A stretch of DNA of 39,289 bases from Chloroflexota bacterium. GTDB lineage: Bacteria; Chloroflexota; UBA6077. Each line of letters starts with the position of its first letter. The first letter of the stretch is position 1. The notes beneath the pieces were generated by a model. That model saw only the letters and a list, made by a program, of their open reading frames with translations, was not told the DNA's origin and ran no database searches. The stretch spans positions 1-39,289 of the forward strand of contig JAJZRD010000009.1 of NCBI GenBank assembly GCA_021845945.1, given 5' to 3'. The position numbers were made by a program, and so were the translations under genes. Shown piece by piece: positions 9,323 through 17,990 of the stretch.

Positions 9323-11104
9323 TCAGGGCTGGCCGTCGCCGGGCACGGGCTCCGACGGCGAACCGACGCCGTCGCCGGACTCGGGCGCGATCCCGACCGG
9401 CTCTGCGGGGATCGAGACCACCACGGCGGTGCCCTTGTCCACCTGGCTCTCCACCGCCACTTCACCGCCCATGGCATCGACCAACTGCTTCACGATAGAG
9501 AGCCCCAGGCCGGTGCCCGGTATGCATCGGGTCTGGCTCATCTCGCCCCGGAAGAAGGGGTCGAACATCCGCTCGAGATCCTCGGGCGGGATCCCGTACC
9601 CGGAATCGCTGACCTCGATCTTCAGCTTCTCTCCACCCACCGACACCCGCACCAGCACCGGCGACGGATCCTGAGAGAAGTTCAGGGCGTTCCGCACCAG
9701 CCTGACGACCACGGACTTCAGCTTGGCTCCATCCACCGTTACCGGCGGCAGCGGTTCCGCGACCTCCAGCAGCACCCGGTGTCCGTGAGTAGGTCCGCAC
9801 GCATCGGCTATGGCCTCTCGAACCACAGCCGAAGTGTCGGACGGCTGGGTAGACAGCACCAACGAACCCGATTGCAGGTCGGCGAACTCGATGATGTCGT
9901 CCACTACCTCGGCCAGCCGCACCGAGCCCTGGTTCACAAGGCCCGCGACCTGGCGAAGCTGGTCCGGCTCGAACAGCCGCTGCATCAGCAGCTCGCTTCC
10001 CGCCTGAACGAAGCTGAGGGGGGTGCGCAGCTCGTGGGAGATGGTGGAGATGACCCGCGACTTGAGCTCGTTCAGATCCCGCAGGGCCGCGGCCTCGCTG
10101 GCCTGCCGGTGTTGGCGCTGGCTCCGGAGGGCCAGCCCAACGATGTCGGCCAACCCCCGCAGCAGATCCACCTCCTTGGCCGTGAAATCCTCGTCCGATC
10201 GAGATCTCACCACCACTATCTGTCCCACCACCTCGCCATCGATCGCAAGGGGCACCAGAGCCACCGACCGTATCTCCACGGAGACCAGATCCGCCTCCGC
10301 CCCCAGCTGATCGTGCTGCAACTCGCCCACCACCACCACATCCAGACCGCTCAGCATGCTGGCTACCGCCGGGATCCGGTCGGGGGAAATGGGGGCCGAG
10401 GTGAATCGCTCCGCTTTCCGGCTTGCCGGGTTGCCCCGCCACTCCGGCTCGAACTCCCCCTTGTCCGGAGCCCACGACCACACGGAGCAGCGATCGCACT
10501 CCAGCAAGGTTGGCACGATCTCGACCATGGATCGGAAGAGACCCGACTGCTCGGTCTCCCTACCCAGGTCCCGGGCGACCTGCAGCAGTGTGCTGGAGGA
10601 CTCGGCTTCCTGCTTCTGCAATCGGTAGCGTTGAGCGGACTCGATGGAGGACGCGGCCCAGTTGGCCAGCATGCTGAGGATCGAGAGGTCTTTCTGGTCG
10701 AAGGCGCCCTGTCGGTAGCTCTGGACGGAGATGAAGCCGAGGACCTTTCCGCCGATGCTCATCGGCGCCCCCATCCACGATAGGGGAATGGTGCCCCGCT
10801 CGAGCTCGAAGTTTCGCACCAGCAGCGGTCTTCCCGTGCGGACGATCACGTCGCTGAGACCATCTCCGAGCTCGCGGGTTTGGGGCACCTGTTTGACCCC
10901 ACGCTCGACCACCATCTCGTAGGTGATCTGGTTGGGACCGGGCCCGCATAGAGCGATCGAGAAGGACTCGACGGGGAGAACCTTCGCCGCCTGCGCCCAG
11001 ATCGCCTCAAAGACCCCGTCTGGTCCTTCTCCCAACTTCCACTCCAACCGGGGGTGTACACACACGTCTAGCAAGAAAGTAGCACTAGGAGCGAGATTCC
11101 ACAA
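9323..11104 (-). CDS. Cytoplasmic GAF-GAF sensor histidine kinase
   Basis: Soluble two-component sensor kinase of 593 residues with no membrane segment. Order: GAF domain about residues 25-158, second GAF about 185-330, a short coiled linker, then a HisKA/HATPase core. Kinase boxes are the H-box ISHELRTPLSF with His357, N-box VVRLVRNALNFS (about 467-477), G1 DSGYGIPPEDL, F-box MFDPFFRG and G2 GTGLGLSIVKQL. The C-terminus carries a Pro/Gly-rich tail. The TTG at 11102-11104 is the longest start and overlaps the aroQ end by 20 bases; downstream GTG codons are possible. It is the last gene of the shikimate operon and has no response regulator beside it. The ligand of the GAF domains is unknown. 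Confidence 0.88.
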   Translation of the reverse strand: MWNLAPSATFLLDVCVHPRLEWKLGEGPDGVFEAIWAQAAKVLPVESFSIALCGPGPNQITYEMVVERGVKQVPQTRELGDGLSDVIVRTGRPLLVRNFELERGTIPLSWMGAPMSIGGKVLGFISVQSYRQGAFDQKDLSILSMLANWAASSIESAQRYRLQKQEAESSSTLLQVARDLGRETEQSGLFRSMVEIVPTLLECDRCSVWSWAPDKGEFEPEWRGNPASRKAERFTSAPISPDRIPAVASMLSGLDVVVVGELQHDQLGAEADLVSVEIRSVALVPLAIDGEVVGQIVVVRSRSDEDFTAKEVDLLRGLADIVGLALRSQRQHRQASEAAALRDLNELKSRVISTISHELRTPLSFVQAGSELLMQRLFEPDQLRQVAGLVNQGSVRLAEVVDDIIEFADLQSGSLVLSTQPSDTSAVVREAIADACGPTHGHRVLLEVAEPLPPVTVDGAKLKSVVVRLVRNALNFSQDPSPVLVRVSVGGEKLKIEVSDSGYGIPPEDLERMFDPFFRGEMSQTRCIPGTGLGLSIVKQLVDAMGGEVAVESQVDKGTAVVVSIPAEPVGIAPESGDGVGSPSEPVPGDGQP

Positions 11105-11525
11105 GGGCTATTAGTCCCTGAAGTGCCAGCGAGTATCCCTGGTGCCCGAGCCCGGATATCTGGCCCGTGACCACCTCCGACGTGATCGAGTGGTGCCGGA
11201 AGGGCTCACGAGTGTAGATGTTGGAGAGGTGCACTTCGATGACGGGAATCGATAGAAATGCCAGGGCGTCCCGCACCGCCACGCTGTAGTGACTGAACGC
11301 CGCCGGGTTGATGATCAGGCCATCCACGACGCCTTCAAGCTCGTGAAGATAGTCAATTATAGCCCCTTCGCTGTTACTCTGGAAGAACTGCAACTGGACA
11401 CCCAGGGATCGGGCCCGCTCCGTTAGTCCAGCTTCGATCTCCGCCAGGGTAGTCGTTCCGTAGATCCCGGGCTGTCTCTTGCCCAGGACGTCCAAGTTGG
11501 GGCCATTAACCACCGCGATCTTCAC
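11085..11525 (-). CDS. aroQ: Type II 3-dehydroquinate dehydratase
   Basis: Third step of the shikimate pathway: dehydrates 3-dehydroquinate to 3-dehydroshikimate. The 146-residue protein is a typical type II enzyme with NGPNLDVLGKRQPGIYG at the N-terminus (Tyr of IYG as the catalytic base, Arg in the lid), QSNSEGAIID, NPAAFSHYSVAVRDAL (catalytic His) and EVHLSNIYTREPFRHHS. The GTG at 11523-11525 has AAGGAG six bases upstream. It follows aroB by 45 bases; its end overlaps the histidine kinase frame. Confidence 0.96.
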   Translation of the reverse strand: MKIAVVNGPNLDVLGKRQPGIYGTTTLAEIEAGLTERARSLGVQLQFFQSNSEGAIIDYLHELEGVVDGLIINPAAFSHYSVAVRDALAFLSIPVIEVHLSNIYTREPFRHHSITSEVVTGQISGLGHQGYSLALQGLIALVESRS

Positions 11526-11570: not shown

Positions 11571-12659
11571 TCACCCCGCCACCAACATCTCCAGTACCTG
11601 CTTCACCAGTTCGACGGGCACGTCCCGACGGATCACCACCCGGCCGATCCCCTCGGGGAGAACCCACGCCAGCCGTCCCTGGCTCGCCTTCTTGTCCCGC
11701 AGCATGGCCTCCCACACCCGATCCAGGGCGACTTCCGGGCAGCGGGTTGGGAGATCCAGCCCGCTCAGCAGCGTCTCCTGCCGGCCGCCCACGGCGGCAT
11801 CCACCATACCCAGCTCCGTCGTGATCCTGGCCGCGCCCACCATGCCGATGGCTACCGCCTCACCGTGGCGGTAGCGGGAGTATCCGGAGGCGGCCTCCAC
11901 CCCATGGCCGATGGTGTGGCCGTAGTTGAGGATGGCGCGCAGGCCGGATTCCCTCTCGTCCGCCTGAACCACCTGCGCCTTCAGCCGCACGGTTCGGGCT
12001 ACGATCTCCTCCATCGCTTCCGGCTCCGCCCGCAACAATCCCGCCCCCTGGGCCTCCAGTTGCTCGAAGAAAGGGGCATCCATGATGGCCGCCATCTTCA
12101 CCACCTCACCCAGGGCCGCCGACAGCTCCCGAATTGGTAGAGAGGAGAGGGTGCCCGGGTCCGCCACCACCAGGGACGGCGGATAGAAGGAGCCGATCAG
12201 GTTCTTTCCCCGAGGGTGGTTGACGGCCACCTTGCCACCCACGCTGGAATCCACCTGGGCCAGCAGGCTGGTAGGCAGCTGCACCAGCCGCACCCCCCGG
12301 AGCAGGGTGGCGGCGGCGAAGCCCGCCAGGTCCCCCACCACGCCGCCGCCCAGCGCCAGCACCAGGTCGCGCCGCTCGGTGCCCAGGTCGATCATCCAAT
12401 CGTAGAGACGCGCCGCCATCCCCAGCGACTTGCTGGTCTCCCCCGACGGGACCAGGAAGGAGGCGACGGCGAAGCCATCGGCCCGGAGCCTTTCCTCCAG
12501 CTCCGGACCGTAGAGCCGGTGCACCGCCTCGTCCGCCACCAGCCGAACGGCCCCCTCCAGGCCTGACTCTCTCAGCAGCCGGCCGGCGAAGGGGAGCAGC
12601 CCCCGCCCGACCAACACCCGATACCGGCCGGCCGTCGCCTCGATAGGAATAGAGATCAT
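11571..12659 (-). CDS. aroB: 3-dehydroquinate synthase
   Basis: Second pathway step: NAD- and metal-dependent cyclisation of DAHP to 3-dehydroquinate. The 362-residue length is normal. NAD-binding GGGVVGDLAGF at 104-114, PTSLLAQVDSSVGGK at 129-143, then metal and substrate residues in GEVVKMA, NYGHTIGHGVE and YRHGEAVAIGM. The ATG start (12657-12659) overlaps the aroK stop in an ATGA arrangement, indicating translational coupling. Confidence 0.97.
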   Translation of the reverse strand: MISIPIEATAGRYRVLVGRGLLPFAGRLLRESGLEGAVRLVADEAVHRLYGPELEERLRADGFAVASFLVPSGETSKSLGMAARLYDWMIDLGTERRDLVLALGGGVVGDLAGFAAATLLRGVRLVQLPTSLLAQVDSSVGGKVAVNHPRGKNLIGSFYPPSLVVADPGTLSSLPIRELSAALGEVVKMAAIMDAPFFEQLEAQGAGLLRAEPEAMEEIVARTVRLKAQVVQADERESGLRAILNYGHTIGHGVEAASGYSRYRHGEAVAIGMVGAARITTELGMVDAAVGGRQETLLSGLDLPTRCPEVALDRVWEAMLRDKKASQGRLAWVLPEGIGRVVIRRDVPVELVKQVLEMLVAG

Positions 12660-13204
12660 GGCTCCCTCGCTACCCCGGTCGACCGACCGTCCAGCGCCGT
12701 CTCGAGGGCCGCGGCGACCCTTGCGACCGCCCCCTCCGGCTCCATCTCCTCGGTGGACACCGTCAGGTGGGCGGTCTCTCGATAGATGGGATCCCTGACT
12801 GCCTTCAACGCCGCGATCCGCTCCCTGCCCCCCGTCCCCAACATTGGCCGGGGCTCCTCTTCGGCGGCCCGGGCCAGCCTACGGTACAGGGTATCGACCC
12901 CCGCCTCCAGGAGCACCACCAGGTTGCCCTCCCTCACGATCTCGCGGCTGCCCGGATCCACCACGGCCCCGCCACCCACGGCCACGACCCTGCGGGTCCC
13001 TCGGAGCGCCTCCCTCACGGCCTCGCCTTCGAGCTGCCGAAAGGCGGCCTCGCCCTCCCGAGCGAAGATCTCGTGGATCCGCCGACCGGCCTGCCGTTCT
13101 ACCTCGACGTCGGTATCAACGAACTGCCAGCCCAAATGTTGCGCCAGAAGCCGCCCAACCGCCGACTTGCCGCTGCCGCTGAAACCGATCAGCACCACGT
13201 TCAT
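12656..13204 (-). CDS. aroK: Shikimate kinase
   Basis: Fifth step: ATP-dependent phosphorylation of shikimate at the 3-hydroxyl. The 182-residue protein shows the P-loop GFSGSGKS at residues 7-14, the shikimate-binding DTDVEVERQAGRRIHEIF segment with the conserved Asp-x-Asp, the FRQLEGEAV segment and the GGGAVVDP loop near residue 80. The ATG at 13202-13204 has GGAG nine bases upstream, set within the end of aroC six bases away. The stop overlaps the aroB start by four bases. Confidence 0.96.
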   Translation of the reverse strand: MNVVLIGFSGSGKSAVGRLLAQHLGWQFVDTDVEVERQAGRRIHEIFAREGEAAFRQLEGEAVREALRGTRRVVAVGGGAVVDPGSREIVREGNLVVLLEAGVDTLYRRLARAAEEEPRPMLGTGGRERIAALKAVRDPIYRETAHLTVSTEEMEPEGAVARVAAALETALDGRSTGVAREP

Positions 13205-13210
13205 CGTGTA

Positions 13211-14446
13211 CTACTCCGAAAGACACTCGGTTGGGGGCGATCCCGGCGATCGCCCCGAGGCGGCCAGGTATCCCCGATAGTTGCGGTCGATCTCCTCCAC
13301 CGAGTCGCCGCCGAACTTCTCCAGGAAGGCATCGGCCAGCACCAGGGCCACCATGGCCTCGCCCACGACGCCCGCCGCGGGGACCACGCACACGTCGCTC
13401 CGCTCGATGGTCGCTGCCACCGGCCGCTTCGTCACCAGGTCCACCGATGGGAGCGGCTGCATCAGGGTGGGTATCGGCTTGGCCGCGCAGCGCACCACGA
13501 AGGGCTCTCCGTTGCTCGTGCCCCCTTCGATGCCGCCGGCGTTGTTCCCCTGCCGCACCCATCCTTCCTCTGGGTCGTGCCGGATCACGTCGTGGAAGCC
13601 GCTTCCTCGCAGCACAGCGCCGCCGAAGCCGGCCCCCACCTCGAAGCCCTTGACCGAGTTGATGCTCATCAACGCCTCGCCCAGCCGGGCGCTCAGCTTC
13701 CGATCCCACTGCACGTGGCTCCCCAGGCCGGCCGGCACCCCGTAGACCACCACCTGGAAGACCCCACCCAGGGTGTCGCCCGCCCGCCGGGCCTCGTCGA
13801 TTGCCTGCACCATCGCCTCGCCCGCCGCGGGGTCACCGCACCGCACCGGCGATGCCTCCACCGCCTCCCAGTATCGCTCGGCCCTCTCCCCCCAGGCCCC
13901 CCGCCGGTCGGTGCCGACCCACCCAGGTACCTCGGCCGCCACCCCACCGATGGCCACGGTCTCGCTCCGCAGCTCGATGCCGAAGTGGCCGAGCAGCGTC
14001 CGGGCGATGGCCGCCAGGGCAACCCGCGCGGCGGTCTCACGGGCGCTGGCCCTCTCCAGCACGTTCCGCACGTCCTGGTGGCCGTACTTGAGCGCTCCGG
14101 GTAGGTCGGCGTGCCCGGGCCGGAGGCGGGTCACCGCCTCCACCGGCTGCTCCGGGGGCTCCACGCCCATCCGCCCCGTCCAGTTGGCCCAGTCACGGTT
14201 CGGGATCAGAAGGCCTATGGGACTCCCCAGGGTGAGCCCGTGGCGCACGCCGGAGAGCAGCTGCACCCGGTCCTTCTCGATCTTCATCCGCCCGCCGCGG
14301 CCGTGGCCCCCTTGCCGGCGCCGAAGCTGCAGGTCGATCTCCTCGGGCGCCAGGGGCAGCCCGGCAGGCATGCCGTCCAGGATCCCCACCAGCGCCTGCC
14401 CGTGGGACTCCCCAGCCGTGAGCAGCCTCAGCACCCTAAGCATCAT
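13211..14446 (-). CDS. aroC: Chorismate synthase
   Basis: Last step: reduced-FMN-dependent elimination of phosphate from EPSP to give chorismate. Signatures are TAGESHG near the N-terminus, RPGHADLPGALKYGH, the SARETAARVA segment, NNAGGIEGGTSNGEP and the VVPAAGVVGEAM C-terminal region. The frame is open for 75 codons upstream, but the family N-terminus begins at the double ATG (14446 and 14443), with GGAGG four and seven bases before them respectively; the second ATG has the better spacing. At 411 residues it is slightly long. Its start overlaps the aroE end by 11 bases. Confidence 0.95.
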   Translation of the reverse strand: MMLRVLRLLTAGESHGQALVGILDGMPAGLPLAPEEIDLQLRRRQGGHGRGGRMKIEKDRVQLLSGVRHGLTLGSPIGLLIPNRDWANWTGRMGVEPPEQPVEAVTRLRPGHADLPGALKYGHQDVRNVLERASARETAARVALAAIARTLLGHFGIELRSETVAIGGVAAEVPGWVGTDRRGAWGERAERYWEAVEASPVRCGDPAAGEAMVQAIDEARRAGDTLGGVFQVVVYGVPAGLGSHVQWDRKLSARLGEALMSINSVKGFEVGAGFGGAVLRGSGFHDVIRHDPEEGWVRQGNNAGGIEGGTSNGEPFVVRCAAKPIPTLMQPLPSVDLVTKRPVAATIERSDVCVVPAAGVVGEAMVALVLADAFLEKFGGDSVEEIDRNYRGYLAASGRSPGSPPTECLSE

Positions 14447-15383
14447 CGAGCCTCCTTCCCTCGCCCTCAGGGAGAGGCGTGGACCGGCCGGAGGGCAGAT
14501 CCACGGGGTGAGGGTGCCGATGGCTGACGGCCGGCGGCTGATGGCTCTCGACCAGGGCCCGCTCCGCCGCGTCCTGCATGGCCTCCACCGGCGCCTTATG
14601 GCCGGTCCACAGCTCGAAGGCGGCGGCGCCCTGGTAGACCAGCATCGGGAGGCCGTCCAGTGTCCGGGCACCCCGCAGCGCGGCCTCCCGCAGCAGTCGG
14701 GTAGGTCGAGGATTGTAGATCAGATCCACTGCCAATATGCCCTCAGGAATCAATTCGGCAGGAAGCGGCGTTTCGTGAACGGCTAACCCCACCGAGGTTG
14801 CGTTTACCAGCAATCCAGCCCCGGCCAGCCCCATCGCCACCGCCGCCGGGTCCCACGGCTCCACCGCTACCTCGGTGTCCCACTGCCACGCCCGGGCCGA
14901 GGCCGCCAGCCGCTGCGCCCGCTCCCGGTGCCGGTTGTGCAGGCTCACCCTCGCGGCTCCGGCCCGGCAGAGTGCCCACACCACGGCCCGGGCGGCTCCC
15001 CCTGCGCCCAGCACCACTACCTTCCGGCCCCGCGGGTCGAACCGCCCCCGCTCTCGGAGGGCCTGGAGGAAGCCTATCCCGTCGGTATTGTACCCGACCA
15101 GCCGCTCCTGGGAGACCACGATGGTGTTGACCGCGCCGATGGCCTCCGCCTCGGGGGACAGCCCATCCAGTAGCGGGATCACCGCCTCCTTGTGGGGGAC
15201 CGTCACGTTGATGCCCAGCCAGTCTCCGCTCCTGAGGTCCGAGACGAAGGCCGGTAGGCCGGCGGGGACCACCTCACGACGATCGTAGGTCGCCTGGACG
15301 CCGCAGGCCTCCAGGGCAGCCCCGTGGAGGGCCGGAGAGAGGCTGTGAGATATGGGGTAGCCGATCACAGCCAGCTGCTTCAC
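14436..15383 (-). CDS. aroE: Shikimate dehydrogenase with an added C-terminal tail
   Basis: Fourth step: NADPH-dependent reduction of 3-dehydroshikimate. The GTG at 15381-15383 has GGGGAGG six bases upstream and overlaps the aroA stop (GTGA). Motifs in order: SHSLSPALHGAAL substrate site, NVTVPHKEAV with the catalytic Lys, GAVNTIV, YNTDGIGF, Rossmann loop GAGGAARAVVWAL, NRHRERAQ, NATSVGL, DLIYNPRPTRLL and GLPMLVYQGAAAFELWTG. The core ends about 35 residues before the stop. The remaining tail is rich in Pro, His, Ser and Arg (SHRHPHPVDLP, TPLPEGEGR) and is encoded by palindromic sequence, so it looks like readthrough into a repeat. Length is 315 residues against the usual 270-290. Confidence 0.95.
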   Translation of the reverse strand: MKQLAVIGYPISHSLSPALHGAALEACGVQATYDRREVVPAGLPAFVSDLRSGDWLGINVTVPHKEAVIPLLDGLSPEAEAIGAVNTIVVSQERLVGYNTDGIGFLQALRERGRFDPRGRKVVVLGAGGAARAVVWALCRAGAARVSLHNRHRERAQRLAASARAWQWDTEVAVEPWDPAAVAMGLAGAGLLVNATSVGLAVHETPLPAELIPEGILAVDLIYNPRPTRLLREAALRGARTLDGLPMLVYQGAAAFELWTGHKAPVEAMQDAAERALVESHQPPAVSHRHPHPVDLPSGRSTPLPEGEGRRLDDA

Positions 15384-16675
15384 GCCTGACCTCCCCGGGA
15401 GAGGCACTCCAGGTCCTTCCAGAAGCCGGGATAGGAGACCTCCGCCACCTCGGCCCCCTCGATGGCCGTCTCGCCCTGGGCCACCAGTCCGGCCACCGCC
15501 ATGGCCATCGCCATCCGGTGGTCGCCGTAGCTGAGGCAGCGGTCGCCCCGGAGGCTCCGTCCCCCGCGCACCACCAGCCCGTCGGACAGCTCCTGCACGT
15601 CGGCTCCCAGCCTGGCCAGCTCCGTCGACATGGCTCGCACCCGATCGGTCTCCTTCACTCTCAGCTCTGCAGCGTCGCTGAAGCGGGTCTCGCCCTCGGC
15701 GAAGGCCGCCGCCACCGCCAGCACCGGTATCTCGTCGATCAGTCGAGGGATCAGCGCACCTCCGACCTGCGCCCCCCGCAGATGGCTGGATCTGGCCACC
15801 AGGTCGGCCACGGGCTCGCCACCCCGCTCTCCCCTGGGAACCACCTCCAGGTCGGCGCCCATGGCGCGGAGCACCTCCAGAACCCCCGTCCGGCCGGGGT
15901 TGATCCCCACATCCCTGACGGTGATCTCCGCGTCGGGATGGATGGCCGCGGCCACCAGCCAGAAGGCGGCCGAGGAGATGTCCCCCGGCACCTGCACGCT
16001 CAAGACGGTAAGGGGGTCCCCCGGCGTCAGGGTGATGGCGCCGCCGGCCGGGGAGATGCGAGCCCCCTGGGCCGCCAGCATCCGCTCCGTGTGATCGCGC
16101 GAGGGCTGAGGCTCCCGCAGCACCGTGGGGCCCTCGGCGCAGAGGCCGGCCAGCAGCAGGGCCGACTTCAGCTGGGCGCTGGCCACCGGGAGATTGTACT
16201 CTATTCCCTTGAGAAACCCTCCCCGCACGGCTATCGGCGGCAGGGAATCGTCGCGCCGCGCCCACAGCTGGGCTCCCATCCTCCTGAGGGGCTCAATCAC
16301 CCTCCTCATGGGGCGGGAGCGCAGGGAGCTGTCGCCGGTGAGGATGGAGAGAAAGGGCTGTCCGGCAAGCAGCCCCGCCAGGAGCCGCATGGCCGTGCCG
16401 GAGTTCCCCGCATCCAGAAGGTCCTCGGGCTCCCGCAGCCCCTGCAGCCCAACGCCCACGACCCGCAGTGCACCGTCCCCCAGGGTCTCGATGGTGACAC
16501 CCAGGGCCCGCAGGCAGCGAAGGGTGGAGAGGCAGTCGGCGCCGGGGCCCAGGTTCGAGACGGTAGCCTCCCCCTCGGCGATGGCGTTCAGCATCAGGGC
16601 CCGGTGGGAGATAGACTTGTCCCCGGGAACCCGAAGCTCGCCCCGCAGCCGCCGGGCCGGTTTCACCACGATCAT
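15380..16675 (-). CDS. aroA: EPSP synthase (3-phosphoshikimate 1-carboxyvinyltransferase)
   Basis: Sixth step: transfers enolpyruvate from PEP to shikimate-3-phosphate. The ATG at 16673-16675 overlaps the aroF stop (ATGA) and gives the family N-terminus with GDKSISHRA at 18-26. Further blocks: DAGNSGTAMRLL, VASAQLKSALLLAGL, SRDHTERML, IPRLIDEIPVLAVAAA, ELRVKETDRVRAM and SYGDHRMAMAMA. Three of four published class II markers are present (RDHTE, GDKS, SAQLK); the fourth, N-x-T-R, reads NPGR. The 431-residue length is typical. There is little ribosome-site signal, so translation probably depends on coupling to aroF. Confidence 0.96.
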   Translation of the reverse strand: MIVVKPARRLRGELRVPGDKSISHRALMLNAIAEGEATVSNLGPGADCLSTLRCLRALGVTIETLGDGALRVVGVGLQGLREPEDLLDAGNSGTAMRLLAGLLAGQPFLSILTGDSSLRSRPMRRVIEPLRRMGAQLWARRDDSLPPIAVRGGFLKGIEYNLPVASAQLKSALLLAGLCAEGPTVLREPQPSRDHTERMLAAQGARISPAGGAITLTPGDPLTVLSVQVPGDISSAAFWLVAAAIHPDAEITVRDVGINPGRTGVLEVLRAMGADLEVVPRGERGGEPVADLVARSSHLRGAQVGGALIPRLIDEIPVLAVAAAFAEGETRFSDAAELRVKETDRVRAMSTELARLGADVQELSDGLVVRGGRSLRGDRCLSYGDHRMAMAMAVAGLVAQGETAIEGAEVAEVSYPGFWKDLECLSRGGQA

Positions 16676-17721
16676 GCCGGCACCACCGTGGCGCCCACTC
16701 TGTCGGGCAGCTTTCGGCCCACGGCCGACCCCACCACCCGGAGCGAGTCCATCAGCTCGACGAAGTTGGGCAGGTTCAGCGACTGGGGTCCGTCCGAGGC
16801 AGCCGTATCCGGCGAGGGATGAACCTCGACCAGCACCCCGTCGGCGCCCGCGGCCGCCGCCGCCAGGGCCATCGGCTTCACCAGGTACCATTTCCCCGTG
16901 CCGTGGCTGGGGTCCACGATCACCGGCAGGTGACTGAGCCGCTTGACCACCGGCACGGCGCTCAGGTCCAGGGTGTTCCGCACGGCCGTCTCGAAGGTTC
17001 GGATCCCTCGCTCGCACAGGATCACCTCGAAATTGCCGGAGGCCATGACGTACTCCGCCGCCATCAGCCACTCCTCGATGGTGGCCGCCATGCCCCGCTT
17101 CAGCAACACCGGCTTGTCGACCTTGCCCACCTCTCGCAGGAGAGGGAAGTTCTGCATGCTGCGGGTGCCGATCTGGAGGATGTCGGAATGCTCGGCCACG
17201 ACCTGCACCTGGTCCGGCTCCATCACCTCGGTGATTATCTTGAGGCCGGTGCGTTCCCGCACCTCCGCCAGGATCCGCAGCCCCGCTTCCCCCATGCCCT
17301 GGAAGGAGTAGGGCGAGCTGCGCGGCTTGAAGGCACCCCCTCGCAGCACCCTGGCCCCCGCCGCTTTGACGGCCAGAGCCGTCTCCATCATCTGGTCGAG
17401 GCTCTCCACCGAGCAGGGTCCGGCCATCACCACCAGCTCCTGCCCGCCGATCTCCAGGTCGCCCACCCGGATCACGCTGTCGAAGGGCTTGAACTCCCGG
17501 CTGGCCAGCTTGTACGGTTTGCTGATGGGGGTGACCCTCTCCACCCCCGGGAGCATCTCCAACTGCTCCCCCAGTTGTGGCTCGAAGCGTGTGCCGATCA
17601 CCCCTATCACGGTTCGCTCCTCTCCTCCAGACCGGTGGCCTTGCAGCCCCTTACTCTCCAAGCGCGTCAGGACTCCCTGGATCTGCACATCGTCCGCATG
17701 TCTCGACATGATTACGATCAT
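16672..17721 (-). CDS. aroF: DAHP synthase (type I beta), first gene of the shikimate operon
   Basis: Commits PEP and erythrose-4-phosphate to 3-deoxy-7-phosphoheptulonate. The frame opens at 17781, but the ATG at 17719-17721 has a purine-rich GGAGAGGG site and yields the standard MIVIMSRHA start, 349 residues. Residues 1-65 form a ferredoxin-like regulatory domain as in the Thermotoga-type enzyme; the barrel has GPCSVES (101-107), [16 protein letters not shown] (127-142), CERGIRTFE and VDPSHGTGK. In homologues this N-terminal domain mediates feedback inhibition by aromatic amino acids, so enzyme feedback may add to the transcriptional attenuator found in the leader. Confidence 0.96.
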
Positions 17722-17743
17722 GGCGGGTTCCCTCTCCTTTCCG

Positions 17744-17781
17744 GCGGTGTTGCTCGGTGCAAGCGGTGTTGCTCGGTGCAA
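17744..17781. repeat. 19-bp perfect tandem duplication in the aroF leader
   Basis: GCGGTGTTGCTCGGTGCAA is present at 17744-17762 and again at 17763-17781. It sits between the attenuator T-tract and the aroF ribosome site, so it is transcribed only when the terminator is read through. Either a recent slippage duplication or a paired binding site. Confidence 0.9.
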
Positions 17782-17816
17782 AAAGAAGGAGCAGAGGATT
17801 TCTCCTCTGCTCCTTC
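17780..17816 (-). terminator. Attenuator: intrinsic terminator ahead of aroF
   Basis: Perfect 14-bp stem (arms 17803-17816 and 17785-17798) with a GAAA tetraloop when read on the minus strand, followed at once by five T (17784-17780). It stands about 60 bases before the aroF start and inside the transcript from the promoter at 17962-17990, so it must be read through for the operon to be expressed. The 5' arm contains AAGGAGC (17809-17815), complementary to GCTCCTT in the loop of the preceding hairpin. Confidence 0.85.
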
Positions 17817-17867
17817 GGCATGACGGGGTCTGGGGGTTCCTATCGGCTAAGGAGCCCCGTCATGCCG
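17816..17867 (-). promoter_or_regulatory. Leader hairpin next to the attenuator (candidate protector stem)
   Basis: Perfect 13-bp stem, arms 17855-17867 (CGGCATGACGGGG on the minus strand) and 17816-17828, around a 26-base loop. The 5' arm encodes codons 15-19 of the leader peptide and the loop holds its stop codon. The loop bases GCTCCTT (17849-17855) can pair with the terminator 5' arm, and that pairing is topologically exclusive with this stem. The stem also resembles interspersed palindromes seen in genomes of this kind, so it may have been recruited from a repeat. Confidence 0.7.
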
Positions 17868-17909
17868 GCTCTTAAAGTAGTACCAGGCGTACCAGATGGT
17901 GGGTATCAT
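17847..17909 (-). CDS. Aromatic amino-acid leader peptide of the shikimate operon
   Basis: Twenty codons from ATG 17907-17909 to TAG 17847-17849: MIPTIWYAWYYFKSRHDGAP. Codons 6-12 read TGG TAC GCC TGG TAC TAC TTT, so six of seven are for Trp, Tyr or Phe. A GAAGGA ribosome site (17913-17918) stands only three bases before the ATG, which is short. The frame begins about 46 bases after the predicted transcription start, and its stop lies in the loop of a 13-bp hairpin adjoining a terminator. This is the organisation of ribosome-mediated attenuation as known for trpL and pheL: scarcity of a charged aromatic tRNA would stall the ribosome on the block and favour readthrough into aroF. The peptide itself probably has no other job. 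Expression is inferred. Confidence 0.82.
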   Translation of the reverse strand: MIPTIWYAWYYFKSRHDGAP

Positions 17910-17961
17910 CGGTCCTTCAATTGGACGAGCTGCCGGGTTGACCCCGGGCAGGTTAGGTGGC

Positions 17962-17990
17962 AGTATACGGAGGTTCCATGCTCCTGTCAA
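17962..17990 (-). promoter_or_regulatory. Consensus sigma70 promoter of the shikimate operon
   Basis: Minus strand TTGACA (17985-17990), 17-base spacer, TATACT (17962-17967). Predicted start near 17955. It is back to back with the plus-strand promoter at 18024-18053; the 33 bases between the two -35 hexamers contain the arms AGTTG (17992-17996) and CAACT (18017-18021), a possible shared operator. Confidence 0.8.

Follow-up and report, generated by a model that had tools for sequence, protein, structure and literature searches.

A candidate aromatic leader-peptide attenuator with a looped-out hairpin upstream of a shikimate operon in Chloroflexota

The 39,289-nt stretch of Chloroflexota DNA analysed here, referred to below as the window, carries on its minus strand seven genes of the shikimate pathway in the order aroF-aroA-aroE-aroC-aroK-aroB-aroQ, with neighbours overlapping or lying no more than about 45 nt apart. 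The genes were named from NCBIfam models, and the curated cut-off was passed by all except aroK. They encode 3-deoxy-7-phosphoheptulonate synthase (aroF, 16672..17721; NF006421, 493 bits against a cutoff of 335), EPSP synthase (aroA, 15380..16675; TIGR01356), shikimate dehydrogenase (aroE, 14436..15383; TIGR00507, start inferred from the reading frame), chorismate synthase (aroC, 13211..14446; TIGR00033, start inferred), shikimate kinase (aroK, 12656..13204; best models under their own cutoffs), 3-dehydroquinate synthase (aroB, 11571..12659; TIGR01357), and type II 3-dehydroquinate dehydratase (aroQ, 11085..11525; TIGR01088). Thus, aroF is followed by six further aro genes, in agreement with the seven genes that a first-pass annotation of this DNA had placed behind the leader. 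A histidine-kinase-like gene (sensor kinase, 9323-11104) overlaps the end of aroQ, and a gene 60 percent identical to it likewise follows aroQ in L217. Among 14 loci examined, all seven aro genes were found in order in L226 and L229, and all seven were also found in L227 and L230, but with a gap of about 800 nt after aroF; in the other 10 loci, six or fewer aro genes were matched. The closest relative, L217, has no space for aroE between aroA and aroC.

Upstream of aroF, on the same strand, lies a near-consensus promoter with the -35 hexamer TTGACA (17985..17990) and the -10 hexamer TATACT (17962..17967) separated by a 17-nt spacer. It is followed by a 20-codon frame, MIPTIWYAWYYFKSRHDGAP (17847..17909), which runs from an ATG at 17909 to a TAG stop codon ending at 17847, and is directly preceded by a probable ribosome-binding site, GAAGGACCG (17910..17918). 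The frame contains an aromatic block, TGG TAC GCC TGG TAC TAC TTT (17874..17894), to which equivalent blocks exist in relatives. The predicted hairpin termed here stem A (17817..17866) begins 10 nt past the first nucleotide of TTT (17876), the final codon of this block. It pairs GGCATGACGGGG (17866-17855) with CCCCGTCATGCC (17828-17817) over 12 bp, or 13 bp with the C-G closure, and its loop contains the stop codon. Adjoining stem A is an intrinsic terminator, consisting of the 13-14-bp hairpin AAGGAGCAGAGGA-GAAA-TCCTCTGCTCCTT (17786..17815) and a T5 run (17780..17784), and the putative aroF ribosome-binding site, GGAAAGGAGAGGG (17730..17742), then precedes the ATG at 17721. The stop codon lies 33 nt before the terminator, the two being 27 and 60 nt, respectively, from the last aromatic codon. 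The promoter, the 20-codon frame with its aromatic block, the two hairpins, the T5 run, and the aroF ribosome-binding site had been described in the first pass and were found again, as were the 7-mers GCTCCTT (17849..17855) and AAGGAGC (17809..17815, at the base of the terminator 5' arm), which had been proposed to pair with each other as an antiterminator. The leader region folds far better than shuffled sequences (z -6.87; 0 of 200 shuffles equally good), and in a fold of the window RNA alone, stem A coexists stably with the terminator. A search against the Rfam families, including the T-box covariance model, gave no match in the window. Two copies of the direct repeat GCACCGAGCAACACCGC occupy positions 17744-17779, between the terminator and the aroF ribosome-binding site.

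The comparison covered 137 aroF upstream regions, namely the window and L081-L216, of which 135 were counted, L088 and L101 being left out because their upstream sequence is too short. These are regions, not genomes, and several genomes contribute two; they come from the phylum of L001 or from Chloroflexi-labelled genomes, except for L084, which belongs to a Wildermuthbacteria-labelled bin. As 80 loci were added among the matches listed, the sample leans to closer relatives of the window aroF. The most similar aroF gene in the genome collection, 82 percent identical, is that of Chloroflexi bacterium UBA6077 (L001), and the next, 69 percent identical, belongs to a Chloroflexi bin (L002). The aroF gene on the Wildermuthbacteria-labelled contig (L008 and L084) is 61 percent identical to that of the window and has the leader YSFWYFTF, possibly as a result of transfer or of a binning error.

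By a search that was blind to codons, the pair of stem A and terminator was detected before aroF in 52 of the 135 regions, and at least three aromatic codons in one open frame within the 36 nt before stem A were found in 45 of these 52. On the controls, the hairpin pair was found on none of the 135 reverse strands and in one of 405 shuffles, the latter lacking the aromatic codons. A separate count of at least four aromatic codons per eight gave 38 of 135 aroF upstream regions versus 4 of 135 reverse strands and 15 of 675 shuffles. Relatives that keep the hairpins without the aromatic codons, which the first-pass annotation had named as the observation that would speak against an attenuator, are therefore mostly absent. 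Seven hairpin pairs fall outside the count: L167, L168, and L169 have zero or one aromatic codon; L176, L189, and L193 have two; and L211 reads YYWW but escaped the codon count. In L211, the stop codon stands 2 nt upstream of stem A. Aromatic-looking frames in L105 and L107, as well as second frames in L147 and L115, were set aside as probably due to chance. The hairpin pair is absent in 83 of the 135 regions, so the control of aroF varies. Nearly the same scan before other operons found the pair in 3 of 30 ilvB regions and 1 of 28 trpE regions, with no obvious codon run; with these low counts, we rejected the design as a general Chloroflexota attenuator.

Among the 45 loci with the hairpin pair and aromatic codons, Tyr codons are present in all 45, Phe codons in 43, and Trp codons in 15, and 13 have all three. 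The family of leaders thus appears to read mainly Tyr and Phe, and the window leader would read all three amino acids; the proposal that one switch reads Trp, Tyr, and Phe agrees with the codon block of the window and extends to 13 of the 45 loci in the family. The 45 loci (43 non-identical, 42 with a stop codon) form a structure-first set, which is less biased than a second, hand-picked set of 35 leaders. The latter was obtained from 36 leaders after dropping L110, which has an aromatic frame without stem A; it contains the near-identical pairs L009/L079 and L185/L187, and its stem A hairpins were taken from the predicted fold.

The leaders of L001, MLIYQFGFYFYSTA, and L002, MFRSAYFYFRSGMTELLRQR, differ in sequence and are both followed by similar paired hairpins, and GGCATGAC at the foot of stem A falls in three different reading frames in the window, L001, and L002. 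In these three leaders, the RNA stem and the aromatic codons have been kept and the downstream peptide has not. In 17 of the 45 loci, the stem A foot carries the motif GGCATGA, again in three frames across the window, L001, and L002, and its recurrence could reflect a bound factor; otherwise the sequence of stem A varies widely among loci. In the 18 loci where Phe codon usage was compared, TTT makes up 28 of 38 Phe codons in the leader blocks versus 15 of 132 in aroF (p 3e-13), where it is the less used Phe codon, and a less common codon would be expected to sharpen sensing. Promoters of the form TTGACA / 16-18 nt / TATAAT-like with at most two mismatches precede the block in 28 of the 45 loci and were found on the reverse strand in 0 of 45. 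In 14 of the 45 loci, just 34-49 nt separate the end of the best -10 box from stem A (three such promoters have four mismatches), which leaves little room for upstream pairing partners, and in those 14 loci the leader frame would begin at or near the 5' end of the transcript. Leader peptides starting at or near the transcript 5' end are reported for Streptomyces lividans in the sections available of one study (PMC8079986). In L154 and L157, a T run follows stem A, giving two terminator-like hairpins in tandem; an arrangement of tandem terminators was considered and set aside, the T run after stem A being found in these two among the loci listed.

The positions of the three elements relative to each other are close to fixed. 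Counted from the start of the last aromatic codon, stem A begins at 8 nt in 19 of the 43 non-identical loci and at 6-10 nt in 35 of them, the remainder being at 1-5 nt (six loci), 11 nt (one locus), and 19 nt (L173). Stem A and the terminator are separated by -2 to 6 nt, with a spacing of 0 nt in 16 of 43. All 42 loci that have a stop codon place it 3-39 nt inside the stem A hairpin, L173 being without a stop, so a ribosome finishing the peptide must as a rule melt stem A. Because stem A begins just past the aromatic codons, a ribosome waiting there would stand directly before it. For a ribosome at the last aromatic codon with stem A and the terminator both formed, the free RNA between the P site and the polymerase active site was estimated at a median of about 20 nt (range 13-35; 21 in the window; under 28 nt in 42 of 43 loci), assuming 8 nt between the terminator foot and the RNA end and excluding helix widths. 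The available text of a study of ribosome-polymerase complexes describes zero intervening mRNA at 28 nt, as well as a substantial fraction of collided complexes at up to 37 nt (PMC11711091).

According to the first-pass annotation, stalling on the aromatic block covers the 5' arm of stem A, so that stem A is prevented, GCTCCTT pairs with AAGGAGC, and the terminator cannot form, as in classical attenuators. We examined such a switch by masking the RNA up to 12 nt ahead of the ribosomal A site and folding the free RNA up to the terminator loop in 42 loci. With the ribosome stalled at the last aromatic codon of the window, stem A keeps 11.2 expected pairs with the 12-nt mask and 4.6 with a 15-nt mask; the hairpin begins 10 nt further on, and most of it survives the 12-nt mask, contrary to the proposed covering of its 5' arm. 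The terminator arm has a pairing of 0.11 (12-nt mask) or 0.36 (15-nt mask) at the stall versus 0.51 at the stop codon, so that in this test an antiterminator pairing with the terminator 5' arm is not predicted to form on stalling in the window. Across the 42 loci, the median of the expected stem A pairs under the 12-nt mask is 6.4 for a ribosome at the last aromatic codon and 0 for one at the stop codon, with fewer than five pairs at the stall in 15 of 42 loci (L143 and L166 among them). Stalling raises the pairing of the arm by more than 0.2 in 1 of 42 loci (L143, 0.39 at the stall versus 0.10 at the stop, +0.29; L166 gains +0.07) and lowers it by more than 0.05 in 29 of 42. The same test detects the classical type, with a rise above 0.2, in pheL, trpL, thrL, and ilvL, as well as in the Clostridia locus L076; with hisL and leuL failing, four of six E. 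coli leaders pass, so the test is informative but imperfect. Both 7-mers do exist, and the window duplex of terminator arm and middle segment, at -12.1 kcal/mol, is borderline (p 0.05); it is the sole one of the 35 hand-picked leaders to reach this value, and over the whole set such duplexes are no better than shuffles (median p 0.49). By comparison, stem A beats shuffles in 30 of the 35, a partly circular result because stem A came from the predicted fold; its pairing of 99 percent across the structure-first loci is circular as well, the search having demanded it. With stem A standing, the GCTCCTT:AAGGAGC pairing would make a pseudoknot that has hardly any linker. A pseudoknot between the stem A loop and the terminator was considered and rejected, as about 1 nt of linker would have to span 12 bp, which is judged impossible. 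A classical switch, which fits L143, L076, and four of the six E. coli leaders, is thus improbable for the window, and the GCTCCTT:AAGGAGC antiterminator is not borne out.

That the frame has no regulatory function, with stem A and the terminator ending a short transcript or insulating aroF and the aromatic codons being incidental, would fit the restriction of the hairpin pair to 52 of the 135 regions. Such an accident is very hard to reconcile with aromatic codons before 45 of the 52 pairs and before none on 135 reverse strands and 405 shuffles, with a preference among Phe codons in the block that is the reverse of the one in aroF, and with a promoter of at most two mismatches before the block in 28 of 45 loci, and we regard it as highly improbable. 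A more serious contender, though still rather unlikely, is a factor or polymerase pause at stem A, whereby melting by the ribosome would free the polymerase or remove a protein and thereby set termination. Hairpin 1:2 of trpL is described as a pause hairpin that is released by the ribosome in the portion available of an earlier study (PMC1183508), and the recurrence of GGCATGA at the stem A foot (17 of the 45 loci), where the window, L001, and L002 each read it in a different frame, hints at a conserved RNA element. Against it, no known RNA family was matched in the window, stem A varies widely in sequence, GGCATGA is absent from this place in 28 of 45 loci, and a pause or factor alone does not account for the spacing before and after stem A.

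Judged from its arrangement and conservation, the aro leader is very probably a transcription attenuator of the aromatic leader-peptide class. The specific reading that we favor, at about even odds, is that the stalled ribosome leaves stem A standing and that stem A blocks the adjoining terminator. In its boldest form, with a probability of about 0.4, this would be a new design of attenuator in Chloroflexota: the codon-sensing ribosome itself would act as the antiterminator, a looped-out hairpin with near-fixed spacing bringing it up to the terminator, so that the window leader would read Trp, Tyr, and Phe for the whole shikimate pathway with no base-paired antiterminator. When the amino acids are in supply, the ribosome would enter and melt stem A, and the terminator would form. 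When charged Trp, Tyr, or Phe tRNA is scarce, the ribosome would stall on the aromatic block just before stem A, which would stay standing and remove about 45-80 nt as a loop. RNA polymerase, the terminator, stem A, and the waiting ribosome would then be crowded against one another and leave too little RNA free; at about 20 nt of free RNA, the terminator foot presumably cannot close, and the polymerase would read on into the seven aro genes. Given the spacing, Tyr10, Tyr11, and Phe12 of the window leader would be expected to weigh more than Trp6. Stem A would thus occupy the usual place of an antiterminator and act by position, not by pairing with the terminator. Starvation should raise expression, and stem A is the main difference between the two ribosome positions, from which we infer that a standing stem A favors readthrough; stem A has no bases in common with the terminator beyond the foot, and since the two are stable together when folded alone, the blocking would have to be purely steric.

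The predicted output step, in which a standing stem A blocks the adjoining terminator by packing, can draw on the E. coli pyrL leader of pyrBI, where coupling of a ribosome keeps the terminator from folding, as in our proposal (PMC10135430, PMC5021804, from the sections available). In the former study, the text at hand gives a reduction of intrinsic termination by the ribosome from 21.5 to 9.9 percent, as well as suppression of this effect by tetracycline and fusidic acid, so a merely stalled ribosome may not push (PMC10135430). A polyproline stall upstream of the pyrL terminator is described to have raised termination in efp mutants in the accessible part of the latter (PMC5021804). Because of these stall and drug results and the 15 of 42 loci that keep fewer than five stem A pairs, we hold the chances of the output step to be evenly balanced. 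Unlike the window with its stem A, pyrL has no looped-out hairpin in the descriptions available (PMC10135430, PMC5021804). In pyrL, it is UTP that is sensed, by way of the speed of the polymerase and with the ribosome in motion, whereas the window leader would read codons with a ribosome stalled upstream of the looped-out hairpin.

The locus shares with E. coli pheL and trpL a leader frame rich in codons for the end products, an intrinsic terminator before the first gene, and a cognate biosynthetic operon. In pheL, the antiterminator begins about 10 nt past the last Phe codon, as stem A does past the last aromatic codon in the window. However, the antiterminators of pheL and trpL share the terminator 5' arm (pairing at stall/stop 0.67/0.18 and 0.56/0.01, respectively), whereas stem A adjoins the terminator without sharing it, and the window block consists of codons for three amino acids, unlike those of pheL and trpL. 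In leaders of the pyrL type, the frame runs through or up to the terminator, and the window frame stops 33 nt before it. T-box elements also couple tRNA charging to the expression of amino acid genes by means of a terminator, and their RNA binds one tRNA directly; the window aro leader differs in matching no Rfam family. Of 11 loci scanned, 5 (L250, L251, L265, L270, L278) have an Rfam T-box beside ilvB or trpE; these belong to the related genomes G001, G031, G034, and G064, where aroF has an aromatic leader (L081, L097, L096, and L145). That each T-box reads a single tRNA may explain why a multi-codon leader has been kept for the common pathway.

The nearest described system is aroR of Corynebacterium glutamicum, a Phe-Tyr-Phe leader before aroF (PMC11802643, PMC4046766), which we liken to the window by its leader codons and downstream gene on the basis of the published descriptions available to us. 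Both have a Phe/Tyr leader before a DAHP synthase gene, and Phe limitation raises transcription through aroR in these accounts; aroR differs in belonging to another phylum, in being reported as unresponsive to Tyr, and in that the sections at hand mention no Trp codons, and the window has the whole aro operon behind its leader. The claim of the first-pass annotation that no system of such form had been described is thus qualified by the aroR-aroF leader, and holds for Chloroflexota in so far as our search of the open-licence literature found no leader-peptide attenuator in Chloroflexi, Chloroflexus, or Chloroflexota, and no aroF, shikimate, or aromatic leader like that of the window. Naville and Gautheret (2010), in the part of their text available, state that systems of the leader peptide kind had until then been demonstrated in no groups but Proteobacteria and Actinobacteria, and add a Firmicutes case (PMC2965389). 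The sensing principle is known, and what appears to be new is an aro leader of Chloroflexota, as well as the absence of a paired antiterminator. If the favored reading is true, a single RNA switch combines the signals from the several end products of a branched pathway to control seven genes, and termination is controlled by ribosome-polymerase spacing, not by competing helices.

Other aromatic leaders were noted along the way. Trp-rich leaders such as WFWWWRW, FFWRWWH, and YFWCWWC, together with a terminator, precede aroF-type DAHP synthase genes in nine loci (L042, L045, L046, L060, L070, L071, L072, L077, and L078) labelled as Desulfobacteraceae, Desulfosarcina, Syntrophobacteraceae, or Deltaproteobacteria. 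In L076, from a Clostridia bin, the leader MKNFNASYAYFYFKGFYFESPCFGMRG stands before aroF, and a classical antiterminator shares the 5' arm of the terminator.
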